This document shows positions 5,377-34,366 of a stretch of DNA of 64,000 nt, piece by piece (position 1 is the stretch's first letter; each line of letters opens with the position of its first letter). The notes below the pieces were generated by a model. That model was not told the DNA's origin, searched no databases, and saw nothing but the letters and a program-made list of their open reading frames with translations. The position numbers were made by a program, and so were the translations under genes. The stretch is taken from assembly GCF_000423465.1 (NCBI RefSeq), contig NZ_KE384020.1, positions 327,409 to 391,408 on the forward strand, in the 5' to 3' direction. This DNA comes from Propionicicella superfundia DSM 22317 (lineage in GTDB: Bacteria > Actinomycetota > Actinomycetes > Propionibacteriales > Propionibacteriaceae).

Positions 5377-5727
5377 ATGAACGACCTGGTTGCCGCTGTC
5401 GCGGCAGACGCCCTCAAGACCGATCTCCCGACCTTCCGCCCAGGCGACTCCGTGCGTGTGCACGTGCGCGTCATCGAGGGCAACCGCTCCCGCATCCAGG
5501 TGTTCGCCGGCGTGGTCATCGCTCGCACGGGGGCAGGTGTGCAGGAAGCCTTCACCGTGCGCAAGGTGAGCTTCGGCGTCGGCGTCGAGCGGACGTTCCC
5601 GCTGCATTCCCCGATCATCGAGAAGATCGAGGTCGAGCGCCGCGGCGATGTCCGGCGCGCCAAGCTGTACTACCTGCGTGGTCTGCGCGGCAAGGCCGCG
5701 AAGATCAAGGAGAAGCGCGACAACTGA
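5377..5727 (+). CDS. rplS: 50S ribosomal protein L19
   Basis: A 116-residue protein with the L19 core [20 protein letters not shown] and [20 protein letters not shown]-type C-terminus. ATG 5377 is preceded by AGGA seven bases upstream. A GTG 21 bases earlier is in frame but would add residues absent from the family. L19 sits at the 30S-50S interface. lepB and rnhB follow, the usual actinobacterial order. Confidence 0.96.
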
Positions 5728-5767
5728 GGCGGCCCGGCGGCCGACCCCACTCAGGAAAGAAGGAGAC

Positions 5768-6553
5768 GTGGCGGACGACGCGCACGATGAGTCCGGATCG
5801 GTCGCGTCCGCCCGCGGCGGTCGGAGCGGTTTCGGCGGCCTGCTGAAGGAACTGACGATCATCGTCGTCGGTGCGCTGGTGATCTCCACCGTCATCCGGG
5901 TCTTCGTGGCCCAGATGTTCATCATCCCCTCCGGGAGCATGGAGAACACGCTGCACGTCTCCGATCGCGTCCTGGTGCAGAAGGTCACCCATTTCGCGCG
6001 GGGCGACGTCGTCGTCTTCCAGGATCCGGGGGGCTGGCTGGCGGAGTCCTCGCCGGTCGACCGCGGGGTGGTCGGGGACGTCCTCGTGTTCGTGGGCCTG
6101 ATGCCCGACGAGAGCACGGGCCATCTCATCAAGCGTGTCATCGGCCTGCCCGGCGACACGGTCTCGTGCTGTGATGCGCAGGGGCGGATCACGGTCAACG
6201 GCCAGGCGATCGACGAGACGTCCTATCTGTATGCCGACGACTCCGGGCAGGTGGCCCCGAGCGACTTCGCGTTCACCGTCACGGTCCCGGCCGATCATGT
6301 CTTCGTGATGGGCGACCATCGCAACAACTCCCGCGACTCGCGGTGCCACCTGCGCGATCCCGCGGGCAACGGCGAGCCGATGGGCAGCGCCGCGTTCGTG
6401 CCGGTGTCGGACGTCGTCGGCACGGCGGTGTGGATCGTGTTCCCGTTCTCGCGTTGGGGCGGTCTGTCGCAGCCGGCGACCTTCACCGCCGTTCCCGATC
6501 CGCCAGCGGCCCCGGCCCAGGCGGTGATCACCGACTCCGGTCCGGGTTGCTGA
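5768..6553 (+). CDS. lepB: Signal peptidase I
   Basis: A 261-residue type I signal peptidase with one N-terminal transmembrane helix (about 28-48) after an acidic, Ser/Gly-rich cytosolic tail. Catalytic Ser57 lies in IPSGSMENTL and the general-base Lys in HLIKRVIGLPGD (about residue 122). Box E is GDHRNNSRDSR. It cleaves Sec and Tat signal peptides on the outer face of the membrane. GTG 5768 follows GGAGA. This classical Ser-Lys enzyme differs from the Ser-His SipW-type enzyme at 32094. The stop overlaps the rnhB start. Confidence 0.95.
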   Translation: MADDAHDESGSVASARGGRSGFGGLLKELTIIVVGALVISTVIRVFVAQMFIIPSGSMENTLHVSDRVLVQKVTHFARGDVVVFQDPGGWLAESSPVDRGVVGDVLVFVGLMPDESTGHLIKRVIGLPGDTVSCCDAQGRITVNGQAIDETSYLYADDSGQVAPSDFAFTVTVPADHVFVMGDHRNNSRDSRCHLRDPAGNGEPMGSAAFVPVSDVVGTAVWIVFPFSRWGGLSQPATFTAVPDPPAAPAQAVITDSGPGC

Positions 6554-30968: not shown

Positions 30969-31040
30969 TGGGGTATGGGGTAATTGGCAGCCCGACGGAT
31001 TCTGGCTCCGTTAGTTCAGGTTCGAGTCCTGGTACCCCAG
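30969..31040 (+). tRNA. tRNA-Gln (CTG)
   Basis: A 72-base cloverleaf: acceptor TGGGGTA/TACCCCA with discriminator G, anticodon stem ACGGA/TCCGT around the loop TTCTGGC with anticodon CTG, and T arm CAGGTTCGAGTCCTG. CCA is not encoded. Confidence 0.95.
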
Positions 31041-31104
31041 CGGCCGAAGGGATACCGGTTCGCTGGAAGGCTCAGCGTGGGGTAGGCTCTTGGGCTGGCT
31101 AGGA

Positions 31105-31177
31105 GGCCCCGTTGTGTAGCGGCCTAGCACGCCGCCCTCTCAAGGCGGTAGCGCGGGTTCGAATCCCGTCGGGGCTG
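31105..31177 (+). tRNA. tRNA-Glu (CTC)
   Basis: A 73-base cloverleaf: acceptor GGCCCCG/CGGGGCT (first pair G-T), anticodon stem CCGCC/GGCGG with loop CTCTCAA and anticodon CTC, and T arm GCGGGTTCGAATCCCGT. CCA is not encoded. It is followed by a strong terminator and an AT-richer stretch. Confidence 0.95.
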
Positions 31178-31202
31178 CAAAGGACATCCTCGGATGTCGC
31201 GG

Positions 31203-31243
31203 ATGCCCGGATCCACACCTGGTGGATCCGGGCATCTTTTTCG
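31203..31243 (+). terminator. Intrinsic terminator after tRNA-Glu
   Basis: ATGCCCGGATCCAC (31203-31216) and GTGGATCCGGGCAT (31222-31235) form a perfect 14-bp stem with loop ACCTG, followed by CTTTTTC. This is the best classical terminator in the window. Confidence 0.93.
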
Positions 31244-31474
31244 TTTGTGGATTATTACTCTTCGGGAAACCAAGTGACCGCTCTGTGACCAGGGCATTGC
31301 TATTACATTGATCTTGACTCTCCAGTAGGTTGTGAATGGCCTTGTCAGGAGAATGAATGACACGTATTTGGTCCATCCGGTCTTTAAACGACAATGGAAT
31401 CCAGTAAGCTACCCGATATCAGGGTTTGAGGGGCAATGCCGCCCTCCGTCACGTTATTAATTAGGAGTGAATAC
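31244..31474. other. AT-richer intergenic stretch before SipW-type operon
   Basis: No gene is seen. Base composition is clearly lower in GC than the rest of the window. It contains TTGACT near 31314 and ATTAATTAGGAG just before the first operon gene. It probably holds the operon promoter; no convincing -35/-10 pair can be fixed. Position beside tRNA-Glu is compatible with acquired DNA. Confidence 0.5.
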
Positions 31475-32020
31475 GTGTATAAAATCACCCGAGAGGCGCA
31501 TCGGGGGCGCCGCTCGCTGGTCATCCGTTCGTCGCTGGCCGCCCTTGCTTTTCTGGGCATCGGCCTCGGCGTCACCACGGCGGTCTGGACCGACGACGTC
31601 TGGTTCAGCTCCGGCGTGACGACGAAGACGTTCAATCTGCAGGGGTCGGCGACCAGCGCGACGGCAGGCTTCGAGGAGAGCGGCACCGAGGGTTCGATCT
31701 CCCTCGCGATCCCAACCGGCGTGTGGGCCGGGATGGAGCCCGGCGACTCCGTCACCACCTCGGTGTGGCTCAAGAACGCCGGCACGGCGCCGGCTGTGAT
31801 GACGACTCCCGTCTTCACGCTCAACAATGCGTCGAACGGACTGACGATCACCGGCACGGGCACGGGGCTCAGCGTGACGGCGAGCGGCATCGACACGGGT
31901 GACGTCCTGAATGCCGGGGCTGTGCGGAAGGTCGACGTCACGATCACCGCAGGCGGCGACCTCGTCCAGGGCGCGAGCGGAACGCTGCGCATGCAGATTC
32001 ACGGAGAAAGCCAGGCCTGA
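31475..32020 (+). CDS. SipW-dependent-type exported protein (TasA/CalY-like)
   Basis: A 181-residue protein from GTG 31475 (AGGAG eight bases upstream). A basic N-region (KITREAHRGRRSLVIRS) and hydrophobic core (20-36) are followed by TAVWTDDVW and a beta-rich, Thr/Gly-rich secreted domain without cysteines. The pattern hydrophobic core then W/F-[ST]-D is that of alternate signal peptides cleaved by SipW-type signal peptidases. The mature part (TSVWLKNAGTAPAVM, TNNASNG-like turns) resembles TasA-type fibre or surface proteins. A matching peptidase gene follows, so I infer it is the substrate. An ATG 39 bases earlier is less well placed. Confidence 0.7.
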   Translation: MYKITREAHRGRRSLVIRSSLAALAFLGIGLGVTTAVWTDDVWFSSGVTTKTFNLQGSATSATAGFEESGTEGSISLAIPTGVWAGMEPGDSVTTSVWLKNAGTAPAVMTTPVFTLNNASNGLTITGTGTGLSVTASGIDTGDVLNAGAVRKVDVTITAGGDLVQGASGTLRMQIHGESQA

Positions 32021-32093
32021 TCCGTCCGGCGGGTCTCCCGAATGGCGATCCTCGCCTCCGGGTTTCCCGCCGCGGGTCGGCTTTCCGACGGCT

Positions 32094-32663
32094 ATGCGAT
32101 TTCTGCATCTTGCCGCCAACGTCGTCGTGACGTTGGCCGCCGTGATCGGAGTGATCTCCTTCGGTGTCTGGGTCGCGACCGTGACCGGCCGGATCCAGCC
32201 CTTGGTGGTCGTGTCGGGGTCCATGAGGCCGCAGTACGAGATCGGGGACCTCATCATCGCCACGCCGCGGCCCGCGTCGGAGGTGAGTGTCGGCGAGGCG
32301 GTCACCGTGCCGGATCCGGAGCAGAACGGCACCCTCGTCACCCACCGCGTCGTCTCGGTCGGGCGGACGGGCGACGACACCTGGACCTTCGTCCTCAAGG
32401 GCGACGACAACGCCGCGTCCGACCCGAGGCCCTACGTCGTGTCCGGAGATGTGCTGCAGCCCGCGCTGGACGTGCCGTTCCTGGGGGCCGTCGTCGACCG
32501 GCTCCGTTCGCCGAGGGCGGCCGCCCCGCTGGGGATCGGGCTCGTCGCGTGCCTCGGGCTGACGGTGCTGCAGCCGGCCGCCGGATGCGCTCTCGGCGCG
32601 TCCGAGCCGGCGGGGACGCGCCGCATCGCGCGCCCGCGACGGGCCGTCACGGGCGCGCCGTAG
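32094..32663 (+). CDS. SipW-type (ER-type) signal peptidase I
   Basis: A 189-residue membrane peptidase with an N-terminal helix (5-30) and a C-terminal helix (about 148-168). Catalytic Ser43 in VVSGSMRPQYEIGDLI and His84 in GTLVTHRVVSV form the Ser-His arrangement of SipW/eukaryotic-type enzymes, and the conserved acidic residues lie in KGDDNAASD. The lysine used by the housekeeping LepB at 5768 is replaced by histidine. It lies between two genes with alternate signal peptides and likely matures them. No strong ribosome binding site is seen at ATG 32094. Confidence 0.85.
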   Translation: MRFLHLAANVVVTLAAVIGVISFGVWVATVTGRIQPLVVVSGSMRPQYEIGDLIIATPRPASEVSVGEAVTVPDPEQNGTLVTHRVVSVGRTGDDTWTFVLKGDDNAASDPRPYVVSGDVLQPALDVPFLGAVVDRLRSPRAAAPLGIGLVACLGLTVLQPAAGCALGASEPAGTRRIARPRRAVTGAP

Positions 32664-32682
32664 ATCAGGGAGAGGAGCCTCG

Positions 32683-33624
32683 ATGCGCACGAGTCCGAGG
32701 GGAAGCGAGGGTCCGGTCCGGCCCCTCGCGGGCTCGCGCGCGAGGCTCCTCCTCCCGATCGTCTCCGCCGTTCGCGCGGCGCGGCGGCACAGCACACGTT
32801 CCCTGTTCGCGGCGGTCCTCGGCGTCTTCGTGGCCGGCTCGGTCGTGCTGGGTGCGGGAACCGCACGCTCCACGTCATCGGTGTGGTCCGACGACGTCTG
32901 GATCGGCGCGCGGGTGACGACCGTCGCAGGAGCCGCGACCGCCGCGGGCGGGCTCAGCCCGGGCGCGGGCACGGTGTTCCCGGACGGGACGCCCGCGTGG
33001 ACCCTCAACAAGGTTCGCCAGGCCTGCGTGCGTGTCGGCGTGACGACCACGAGTGACACGCCGATCGTCTGGTCGGTGCGGCTGGACACGAGCGCGCAAC
33101 CGTGGAACGGCGCCACCTCCGGTTACAACCTGGACTACGGCTACGCCTTCTCGGGGGGCCTGACGGGCGGTCGGTACCTCACGATCGTGGGCCGGTCGGA
33201 CTCCTCGCCCGCGACGAGCACGGTCATGGCCGGTCAGACGCGCACCTTCGACCTGTGCAACTGGTCCGCGGGCACGCCGCCGATCGGGGACGCCACCTGG
33301 GCCACCGTGAGCGTGTCGAAGGCCACGACGGTGGATCCGGGAAAGGTCTGCAAGACCATCACGGCGACGTCCCTGGAGCGGACGCCGTTCTGGTTCGCGT
33401 GGACGGCGACCGTCGCGACCGCCGACATGTTCGCCGCCATGGGAACCAGGAACAGCTACTGGTGGGAATACAGCGACTGGAACGTCGTGCGCGCTCCGAC
33501 GACGCCGTCGACCGACCCGGCGCAGCCGTCCACGGTGACGTTCACCTCGGCGACCAACGACACGACGAGTCTCCTGGCGGACGGGAAGTCCTACGTCTAC
33601 ACCCTCTGCCTGCGCGGCTCATGA
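32683..33624 (+). CDS. Second SipW-dependent-type exported protein
   Basis: A 313-residue secreted protein. After a long basic N-region, a hydrophobic core (41-60) leads to TSSVWSDDVWIGARVTT, nearly the same junction as in the protein at 31475 (VW[ST]DDVW-x4-VTT). The mature part is rich in Thr, Ser, Trp and Tyr and has four cysteines (QACVRV, DLCNW, KVCKTI, LCLRG), suggesting disulfide bonds outside the cell. No known domain is recognised. GGGAGAGGAG precedes ATG 32683. It closes the three-gene SipW unit. Confidence 0.65.
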   Translation: MRTSPRGSEGPVRPLAGSRARLLLPIVSAVRAARRHSTRSLFAAVLGVFVAGSVVLGAGTARSTSSVWSDDVWIGARVTTVAGAATAAGGLSPGAGTVFPDGTPAWTLNKVRQACVRVGVTTTSDTPIVWSVRLDTSAQPWNGATSGYNLDYGYAFSGGLTGGRYLTIVGRSDSSPATSTVMAGQTRTFDLCNWSAGTPPIGDATWATVSVSKATTVDPGKVCKTITATSLERTPFWFAWTATVATADMFAAMGTRNSYWWEYSDWNVVRAPTTPSTDPAQPSTVTFTSATNDTTSLLADGKSYVYTLCLRGS

Positions 33625-33640
33625 CGGGTGGGGCGGAGTC

Positions 33641-34366
33641 TCAGGACTCGCCGCCGGTGCGCCGCAGAACCTCGGAGAGGCGCTCGGCCGCCGCGATCAC
33701 GGCCGGGGCGTGGAGCCGTCCCGGCTGACGGGTGAGCCGCTCGATCGGCCCGGAGACGCTCACCGCGGCGATCACCTTGCCCGAGGGAGACCGGACGGGC
33801 GCCGACACCGATGCCACTCCCGGCTCGCGCTCGGCGACCGACTGGGCCCAGCCGCGGCGGCGGACGCTCGTCAGCGCCACGGCCGAGAAGGTCGCGTTCT
33901 GGAGCCCGCGCTGGATCCGCTCCGGGTCCTCCCACGCGAGGAGGACCTGCGCCGCCGATCCGGCGGACATCGTCAACTGGCTGCCGACGGGGATCGTGTC
34001 CCGCAGACCCGATGGACGCTCGGCCGCGGCGGCGCACACGCGCAGGTCTCCCTGGCGACGGAACAACTGGGCCGACTCACCGGTGATGTCGCGCAGCCGG
34101 GCGAGCACAGGCCCGGCCGTGGCCAGCAGCCTGTCCTCGCCGGCCGCCGAGGCCAGCTCGCTGAGTCGTGGCCCGAGGATGAACCGGCCCTGCAGATCGC
34201 GGCTGACGAGGCGGTGATGTTCGAGGGCGACCGCAAGCCGATGGGCCGTCGGACGAGCCAGGCCCGTCGCGGTCACCAGTCCGGCGAGAGTGGTCGGACC
34301 GGTCTCGAGAGCGCTGAGTACGAGAGCGGCCTTGTCCAGGACGCCAACTCCACTGGAATTGTCCAT
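33641..34366 (-). CDS. IclR-family regulator (LtbR/NdgR-like)
   Basis: A 241-residue IclR-type protein: winged helix-turn-helix (about 1-65, LDKAALVLSALETGPTTLAGLVTATGLARPTAHRLAVALE) and C-terminal effector domain ending in VIAAAERLSEVLRR. It is divergent from leuCD with 82 bases between starts, the same position as LtbR of Corynebacterium and NdgR of Streptomyces, which control leuCD/leuB and related amino acid genes. I infer that role. ATG 34366 starts at the family N-terminus (MDNSSGVGVLDKAALVL); an in-frame extension into leuC is spurious. Confidence 0.85.
   Translation of the reverse strand: MDNSSGVGVLDKAALVLSALETGPTTLAGLVTATGLARPTAHRLAVALEHHRLVSRDLQGRFILGPRLSELASAAGEDRLLATAGPVLARLRDITGESAQLFRRQGDLRVCAAAAERPSGLRDTIPVGSQLTMSAGSAAQVLLAWEDPERIQRGLQNATFSAVALTSVRRRGWAQSVAEREPGVASVSAPVRSPSGKVIAAVSVSGPIERLTRQPGRLHAPAVIAAAERLSEVLRRTGGES

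Follow-up and report, generated by a model that had tools for sequence, protein, structure and literature searches.

The closest described systems are those of Bacillus. In the tapA-sipW-tasA system of Bacillus subtilis, a SipW-type signal peptidase is encoded between two substrates. According to excerpts of PMC10269814, TasA is cut after A27 and before A28, which leaves F29 at P2′; aromatic residues at P2′ hinder LepB, TasA is cut by SipW, and TasA processing depends on P3 to P4′. The available portions of PMC9674648 and PMC10151520 assign the donor strand of TasA to residues 28-38, the first mature residues, which are inserted into the next subunit, and report that the N-terminus of TapA resembles this strand, was modelled to complement TasA and probably provides the first strand. 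For the sipW region of Bacillus cereus, excerpts of PMC13082335 describe more than one exported matrix protein and an accessory protein with C-terminal tandem repeats; the N-domain of CapP was modelled as a helical bundle. Here we describe a three-gene unit in a 64,000-nucleotide stretch of the Propionicicella superfundia DSM 22317 genome (hereafter, the window), in which a SipW-type peptidase gene stands between genes for two exported proteins, A and B, that share a 14-residue junction at the predicted start of their mature chains. We put at a little better than even the chance that this unit is an actinobacterial TasA/SipW/TapA-like counterpart, with the junction serving as a donor strand common to A and B. 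No description of these actinobacterial units or their products was found in the open-licence literature searched, which is no proof of absence.

The unit consists of three close-packed plus-strand genes in the order A, peptidase, B, with gaps of 73 and 19 bases. Its features in window coordinates are listed below, the three active-site codons being predicted from the sequence.

31475..32020, plus strand: gene A, exported protein, 181 amino acids, no Cys, start codon GTG; TasA-like candidate fibre subunit.
31583..31624, plus strand: A junction VWTDDVWFSSGVTT, residues 37-50 (V37-T50), predicted P1′ to P14′; cut predicted at A36/V37.
32094..32663, plus strand: SipW-type (archaeal/endoplasmic reticulum-type) signal peptidase, 189 amino acids; above the TIGR02228 cut-off.
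32220..32222, plus strand: codon of predicted catalytic Ser43, in GSM.
32343..32345, plus strand: codon of predicted catalytic His84, in THR; Lys in LepB.
32403..32405, plus strand: codon of predicted Asp104, in KGDDN.
32683..33624, plus strand: gene B, exported protein, 313 amino acids, Cys at 115, 192, 223 and 309; TapA-like position.
32881..32922, plus strand: B junction VWSDDVWIGARVTT, residues 67-80 (V67-T80), predicted P1′ to P14′; cut predicted at S66/V67.

An in-frame ATG lies at 31436, upstream of the GTG start of A. The peptidase scored 69.7 bits against TIGR02228 (cut-off 51.85), which together with the open reading frames bore out an earlier note on this DNA that had proposed an exported protein, a Ser-His signal peptidase and a second exported protein, the first without Cys and the second with four. 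S43, H84 and D104, the predicted catalytic residues, occupy the positions expected of the Ser-His type. The peptidase differs from Bacillus SipW in falling far below the cut-off of the SipW equivalog NF046067 (48.1 bits, cut-off 190); matches to the peptidase of the window at E ≤ 0.001 were present in 75 of 198 family genomes. The LepB encoded at 5648-6553 was read by eye as Ser-Lys type (GSM and IKRV), in agreement with the distinction drawn in the earlier note between the two enzymes; the accompanying picture of one SipW-type peptidase beside LepB has to be given up, as the genome (3.62 Mb, 23 contigs) encodes three, on contigs C1 (window), C5 and C10, which belong to three separate parts of the peptidase tree.

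The mature N-termini of A and B resemble each other, as do those of TasA and TapA. The two junctions are identical at 9 of 14 residues and follow the common pattern VW[ST]DDVW-x4-VTT. DNA identity was 33/42 within the motif, 14/42 just upstream and 10/42 just downstream, and BLASTP of A against B recovered the junction (E 0.006) and no other match with E below 0.1, as expected from the earlier proposal that the two proteins are unrelated beyond the motif. Such abrupt boundaries of the match argue that selection acts on these 14 residues. The motif had been described as lying just after the hydrophobic core; it is present in both proteins, and its position is more exactly at the predicted start of the mature chain, past the cut. 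The cut site of A was placed by analogy with TasA (A27/A28-F29), and both A and B carry Trp at predicted P2′ (W38 in A), where TasA has Phe (F29). The peptidase class and the junction are well supported by these comparisons.

The motif itself is confined to this unit. Its 21-base core pattern occurred at exactly two places in the P. superfundia genome and at none with one or two mismatches; three mismatches gave 26 further places, no more than the 29 in all of a reversed control, and the motif was rejected as a genome-wide tag. One three-mismatch place that follows a hydrophobic stretch, TTVWTDKLW at L068, was not counted, as an apparent further membrane segment follows it. Among 394 genomes of the class, W[ST]DDVW-x4-VT was found in one, that of P. 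superfundia, so the pattern reads as a local dialect and not as a general SipW tag. The suggestion in the earlier note that VW[ST]DDVW-x4-VTT is the recognition tag of this kind of peptidase is not supported, as orthologous units also have different junctions (see below). Nor did the proposed hidden Markov model check place the two proteins. A and B resemble members of TIGR04088 and TIGR04089, which have a hydrophobic core, Ala, a variable residue, an aromatic and then mostly T/S/N, often D, and which stand beside TIGR02228 peptidases, but A stayed below the TIGR04088 cut-off of 19 (13.6 bits; 17.0 bits at its place in a six-frame search); B did not match TIGR04088, and neither protein matched TIGR04089 (cut-off 60) at E ≤ 1.

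Junctions specific to the locus are a general feature of the sampled SipW loci, and they track the peptidase tree. From 86 regions around peptidase loci, 78 of them with a peptidase found by rule, 116 substrates were taken; five judged by eye to be shadow frames (L070, L098, L100, L167, L122) were removed, leaving 111. Pairs whose mature parts had no BLASTP match at E 0.1 were compared over positions +3 to +13 from the aromatic residue. Within-locus pairs averaged +8.30 (n = 37), pairs of other loci in one genome -5.57 (n = 30) and pairs from different genomes -2.67 (n = 5232); none of 2000 permutations, which shuffle locus labels and do not model relatedness, reached the within-locus mean. 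An earlier, smaller count had given 8.50 for 24 within-locus pairs against -2.17 for 2248 pairs (0/2000 permutations). The window pair scored 32, the top of the 37, a value reached by 11 of the 5232 other-genome pairs, and without it the within-locus mean was 7.64 (n = 36). Partners differing 1.5-fold or more in mature length averaged 7.67 (n = 12), which 19 of 2000 permutations reached. On a quick tree of 76 peptidases with few columns, six junction classes, which are regular expressions drawn up after the junctions were seen, needed 15 changes, against a shuffled mean of 44.7 with no shuffle of 200 as low; five classes, with the class 'other' set aside, needed 6. Cellulosimicrobium and G562 lie outside the junction class of the window unit.

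The residue two before the aromatic was Ala in 100 of the 111 junctions, Ser in 10 and Gly in 1, an Ala count that leans upward because the junction finder accepts only sites with an aromatic and slightly favours D/N at +2 and A/S at -2. The B junctions of the window, L017, L050 and L052 had escaped the finder and were added by a named rule, those of L160 and L162 were missed and left out, and rows in doubtful register or frame were kept for L075, L086, L093 and L112. At L174 (G516:C1:787500-794500), a distinctive junction, AAWTDTEWV and AAWTDEEWV, is likewise common to two very different proteins (195 and 499 amino acids after the aromatic).

The layout of the window unit recurs. Related A-peptidase-B units were found in Tessaracoccus sp. 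SD287, Cellulosimicrobium cellulans DE0111, Microbacterium sp. Marseille-Q6965, G584 and G575, and a more loosely related unit in G562. In all six, A precedes the peptidase and another exported protein, bearing a W[TSV][DE] junction, is encoded downstream of it; their peptidases form one set of seven with that of the window (Shimodaira-Hasegawa-like approximate likelihood ratio test, SH-aLRT, 99). The junctions of A and B were AWTDNTFF and GWTDRVTI in Tessaracoccus, LWTDDAWF and AWTDDVHA in Cellulosimicrobium, and TWTDDAWF and GWTDGAVF in G575. An alignment of four A proteins, including that of the window, left W38, T39 and D40 invariant; VTT, which the earlier note had included in the motif, was not conserved among the relatives of A. 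Matches to A were found in 11 of 198 family genomes and matches to a profile of the four A proteins in 25 of 394 class genomes, P. superfundia being counted in both. Mutual alignment was possible for the B proteins of Tessaracoccus, G584, G575 and Cellulosimicrobium, to which the B of the window is not detectably related.

Some of these units carry additional features. In Cellulosimicrobium (L050:5516-6055) and G584 (about L160:4316-4843), a further exported-protein gene lies between the peptidase and B; the product combines an ordinary-looking signal peptide with a terminal LAATG, membrane span and basic tail, an arrangement resembling that of sortase substrates, and may be a wall anchor. The B gene of Cellulosimicrobium (L050:6160-6633) has a frame change soon after the junction, either a low-coverage assembly error or a real break, and the Microbacterium B ends after about 57 residues. 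A 27-base repeat coding SAPAEEP(Q/G)D occurs about seven times in the B gene of G575 (L161:2957-3150) and forms a stalk-like tail. The sipW-tasA region of B. cereus with CalY and CapP is alike in having a tandem-repeat accessory protein; it differs in that excerpts of PMC13082335 mention no shared junction motif. A related response-regulator gene (V[VI]EDE[PA]DIR) lies downstream of B in Tessaracoccus (L017), Microbacterium (L052) and G584 (L160) and was not seen beside the unit of the window.

The parallel with TasA and TapA, which the earlier note had named as a contrast only, explains the unit best. As in B. subtilis, a SipW-type peptidase is encoded between two substrates with an aromatic at P2′, one substrate bearing several Cys residues (here B) and the other, A, none. 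The order is mirrored, with A first, and the neighbouring regulator was read by eye as IclR-type, not SinR-type; A has no sequence match to solved TasA, and B has none to any protein searched. By analogy, we infer the cut site, the donor strand, the fibre and the role of B as follows. A and B would be exported via Sec, with signal peptides ending at A36/V37-W and S66/V67-W. The P2′ Trp would make both poor substrates for the Ser-Lys LepB, and a second peptidase would be needed because this Trp, to judge from TasA, hinders LepB; the neighbouring Ser-His peptidase would remove both signal peptides, as its homology and the published work on TasA suggest. The freed N-termini, near copies of each other, could then fit one groove. 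Because the shared stretch lies at the place of the TasA/TapA donor strand and B bears Cys like TapA, A would be the fibre subunit and B the starter or anchor: each A would insert its N-terminal strand into the following A, giving a head-to-tail chain, and B, as a separate protein with Cys, would supply the first A with this same strand and thereby start or anchor the fibre.

Structural comparison gave a weak match of A to the TasA fold. The model of A had a mean predicted local distance difference test (pLDDT) of 65.9, and its first row in a Foldseek search of 350,542 PDB chains was the TasA fibre 8aur (E 8.4e-3). Of the surface layer or fibre proposed in the earlier note, the fibre fits this weak match; no specific support for a surface layer was found. 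A Pfam scan showed no camelysin family, and an internal duplication in B, suspected by eye from the Cys spacing, was rejected because its local score was reached by 339 of 1000 shuffles.

Several results weigh against a TasA-like fibre with a shared donor strand. No Foldseek match reached E ≤ 0.001; an unrelated PapD-like domain came second and, at 8.8e-3, was practically level with TasA. In VIA-align, TasA ranked 48 (Z 5.6, root-mean-square deviation 3.0, 111 aligned), below unrelated beta-sandwiches; the rows above it (MSP, PapD-like, AP2 ear) were put down to a widespread beta-sandwich arrangement. A search of PDB sequences with the profile of four A proteins found no TasA at E ≤ 10. Residues 1-37 and 47-49 of the A model were below pLDDT 50, and block 41-50 averaged 52. 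For the Ig-type domain with a disulfide that characterises TapA, the observations on B are its four Cys and a model (pLDDT 35.9) that was not usable. No homologue of B was found in the contig collection genome_contigs (pattern scan followed by tblastn), B matched only itself in 198 family genomes, and hhalign of the window B against the B proteins of four other units gave a probability of 0.3%; the tentative label 'TapA-like' is drawn from its position, its Cys residues and its junction. Elsewhere, the A and B of a unit are alike little beyond the core, with pair scores of 0, 7, 10 and 13, and the A of G562 has AVFNAN, without the junction Trp. Low scores were also seen for within-locus pairs at L174 (-18 and -19), L069 (-15), L118 (-7), L076 (-6) and L173 (-4). 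Of the 12 length-different pairs, three (L050, L052, L093) have a partner of 20-30 residues after the aromatic, and the remaining nine average 5.9. Finally, the within-locus excess was present also at -14..-3 (10.51 vs 4.47 and 5.50) and at +14..+21 (-0.89 vs -5.57 and -6.23), so junction sharing in the wider set has softer edges on both sides than in the window. Because the excess extends to these positions, it may in part reflect a common origin of some partners that escaped detection.

The explanation that survives best beside the shared donor strand is that A and B are SipW-processed surface proteins which form no TasA-like fibre, for example an adhesin and a partner held separately at the wall. 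The weakness of the TasA fold match favours it, as does the finding that SipW loci also encode RCC1-like and other proteins bearing junctions of this type. It leaves the 14-residue sharing in the mature N-termini unexplained, and the sortase-substrate-like LAATG protein between peptidase and B in Cellulosimicrobium and G584, which is consistent with it, would equally suit a fibre anchor. On this balance we hold it to be unlikely. A pure processing tag, read by this peptidase only and requiring no interaction of the mature proteins, appears somewhat less probable still. Junction classes that co-segregate with the peptidase tree argue for such a tag, as does within-locus sharing at P1′ and -5, on or near the signal side. 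The importance of P3 to P4′ in TasA processing, as given in excerpts of PMC10269814, points the same way. The sharing in the window, however, spans P1′ to P14′ and ends sharply on both sides at the DNA level. Recognition by a signal peptidase is not expected to extend as far as ten residues or more into the mature protein. Because the stretch is wholly on the mature side and its 14 residues go beyond what a peptidase would be expected to read, a role as donor strand in the mature protein is no less likely than one as tag; of the earlier proposal, the dedicated SipW-type peptidase with two neighbouring substrates is supported, and the tag role of the motif is not. Least probable, by our estimate, is common descent without present function, with the signal region of B copied from A or both derived from an older paralogue. 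It is favoured by the 33 of 42 identical motif bases and by the possibility that many within-locus pairs are diverged paralogues missed by BLASTP, whose excess extends from the signal peptide as far as +21. In the window, however, the identity is limited to 14 codons between fully diverged signal peptides and mature parts, where a neutral relic should have decayed evenly, and junctions are also common to some partners of very different length.

Within 31105-33641, the unit looks like an accessory insertion at a conserved spot between tRNA-Glu and an IclR-type regulator. The flanking features on the left are listed below.

30969-31041: tRNA-Gln (ARAGORN), neighbour of tRNA-Glu.
31105..31178, plus strand: tRNA-Glu (ARAGORN), left flank of the insertion site.
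31201..31237, plus strand: strong terminator-like hairpin, 16 pairs with a T tail, between the tRNAs and the unit; also inverted repeat I6.

To the right, the IclR-type regulator is followed by leuC and leuD (read by eye). The IclR gene was present in 56 of 57 family genomes searched, and the tRNA-Gln/tRNA-Glu pair stood beside it in 10 of 29 relatives' loci; the remaining 19 had no tRNA within the available stretch and are uninformative on the insertion site. The insertion is suggested because, in 8 of the 10 relatives with the tRNA pair, tRNA-Glu and IclR stand 64 to 270 bases apart, which leaves the site empty or almost empty (682 and 1169 bases in the other two); the distance is about 2.46 kb in P. 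superfundia. Around the unit, no att-like repeats were found beyond the motif itself and short low-identity repeats, and a sigma-70 promoter scan found no promoter.

The other two SipW loci of the genome differ in content. At the C5 locus (L018:5660-10824), the peptidase is accompanied by several proteins of TasA size that carry [FYI]T[DR] junctions, by an RCC1-like protein (GYVDTTH) and a LuxR-type regulator (families by eye), and by a protein ending in LAFTG, a membrane span and a basic tail, sortase-substrate-like and a possible wall anchor. A sequence search of solved structures with a TasA-like protein of this locus gave no match at E ≤ 1. At the C10 locus (L019:2433-6616), one protein is a true member of TIGR04089 (76.5 bits, cut-off 60); a long surface protein encoded there reads DWVGTAPIHGATVTAG in its N-terminal part.

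TasA-type donor-strand fibres have been worked out in Bacillus, and related peptidases are common in this actinobacterial family. Each SipW locus, those on C5 and C10 included, would keep its own junction dialect, so that parallel systems need not mix; the unit in the window is the clearest such dialect, two otherwise unrelated proteins carrying the same 14-residue stretch. As a speculative extension, which we think has a minority chance of being right, the SipW loci of Actinomycetes may use a private N-terminal code that is both a pass for the peptidase and a strand for subunit recognition, allowing several non-mixing donor-strand fibres per cell. If the junction is a donor strand, the dialects would allow co-assembling exported proteins, and the peptidase that serves them, to be predicted from sequence alone.

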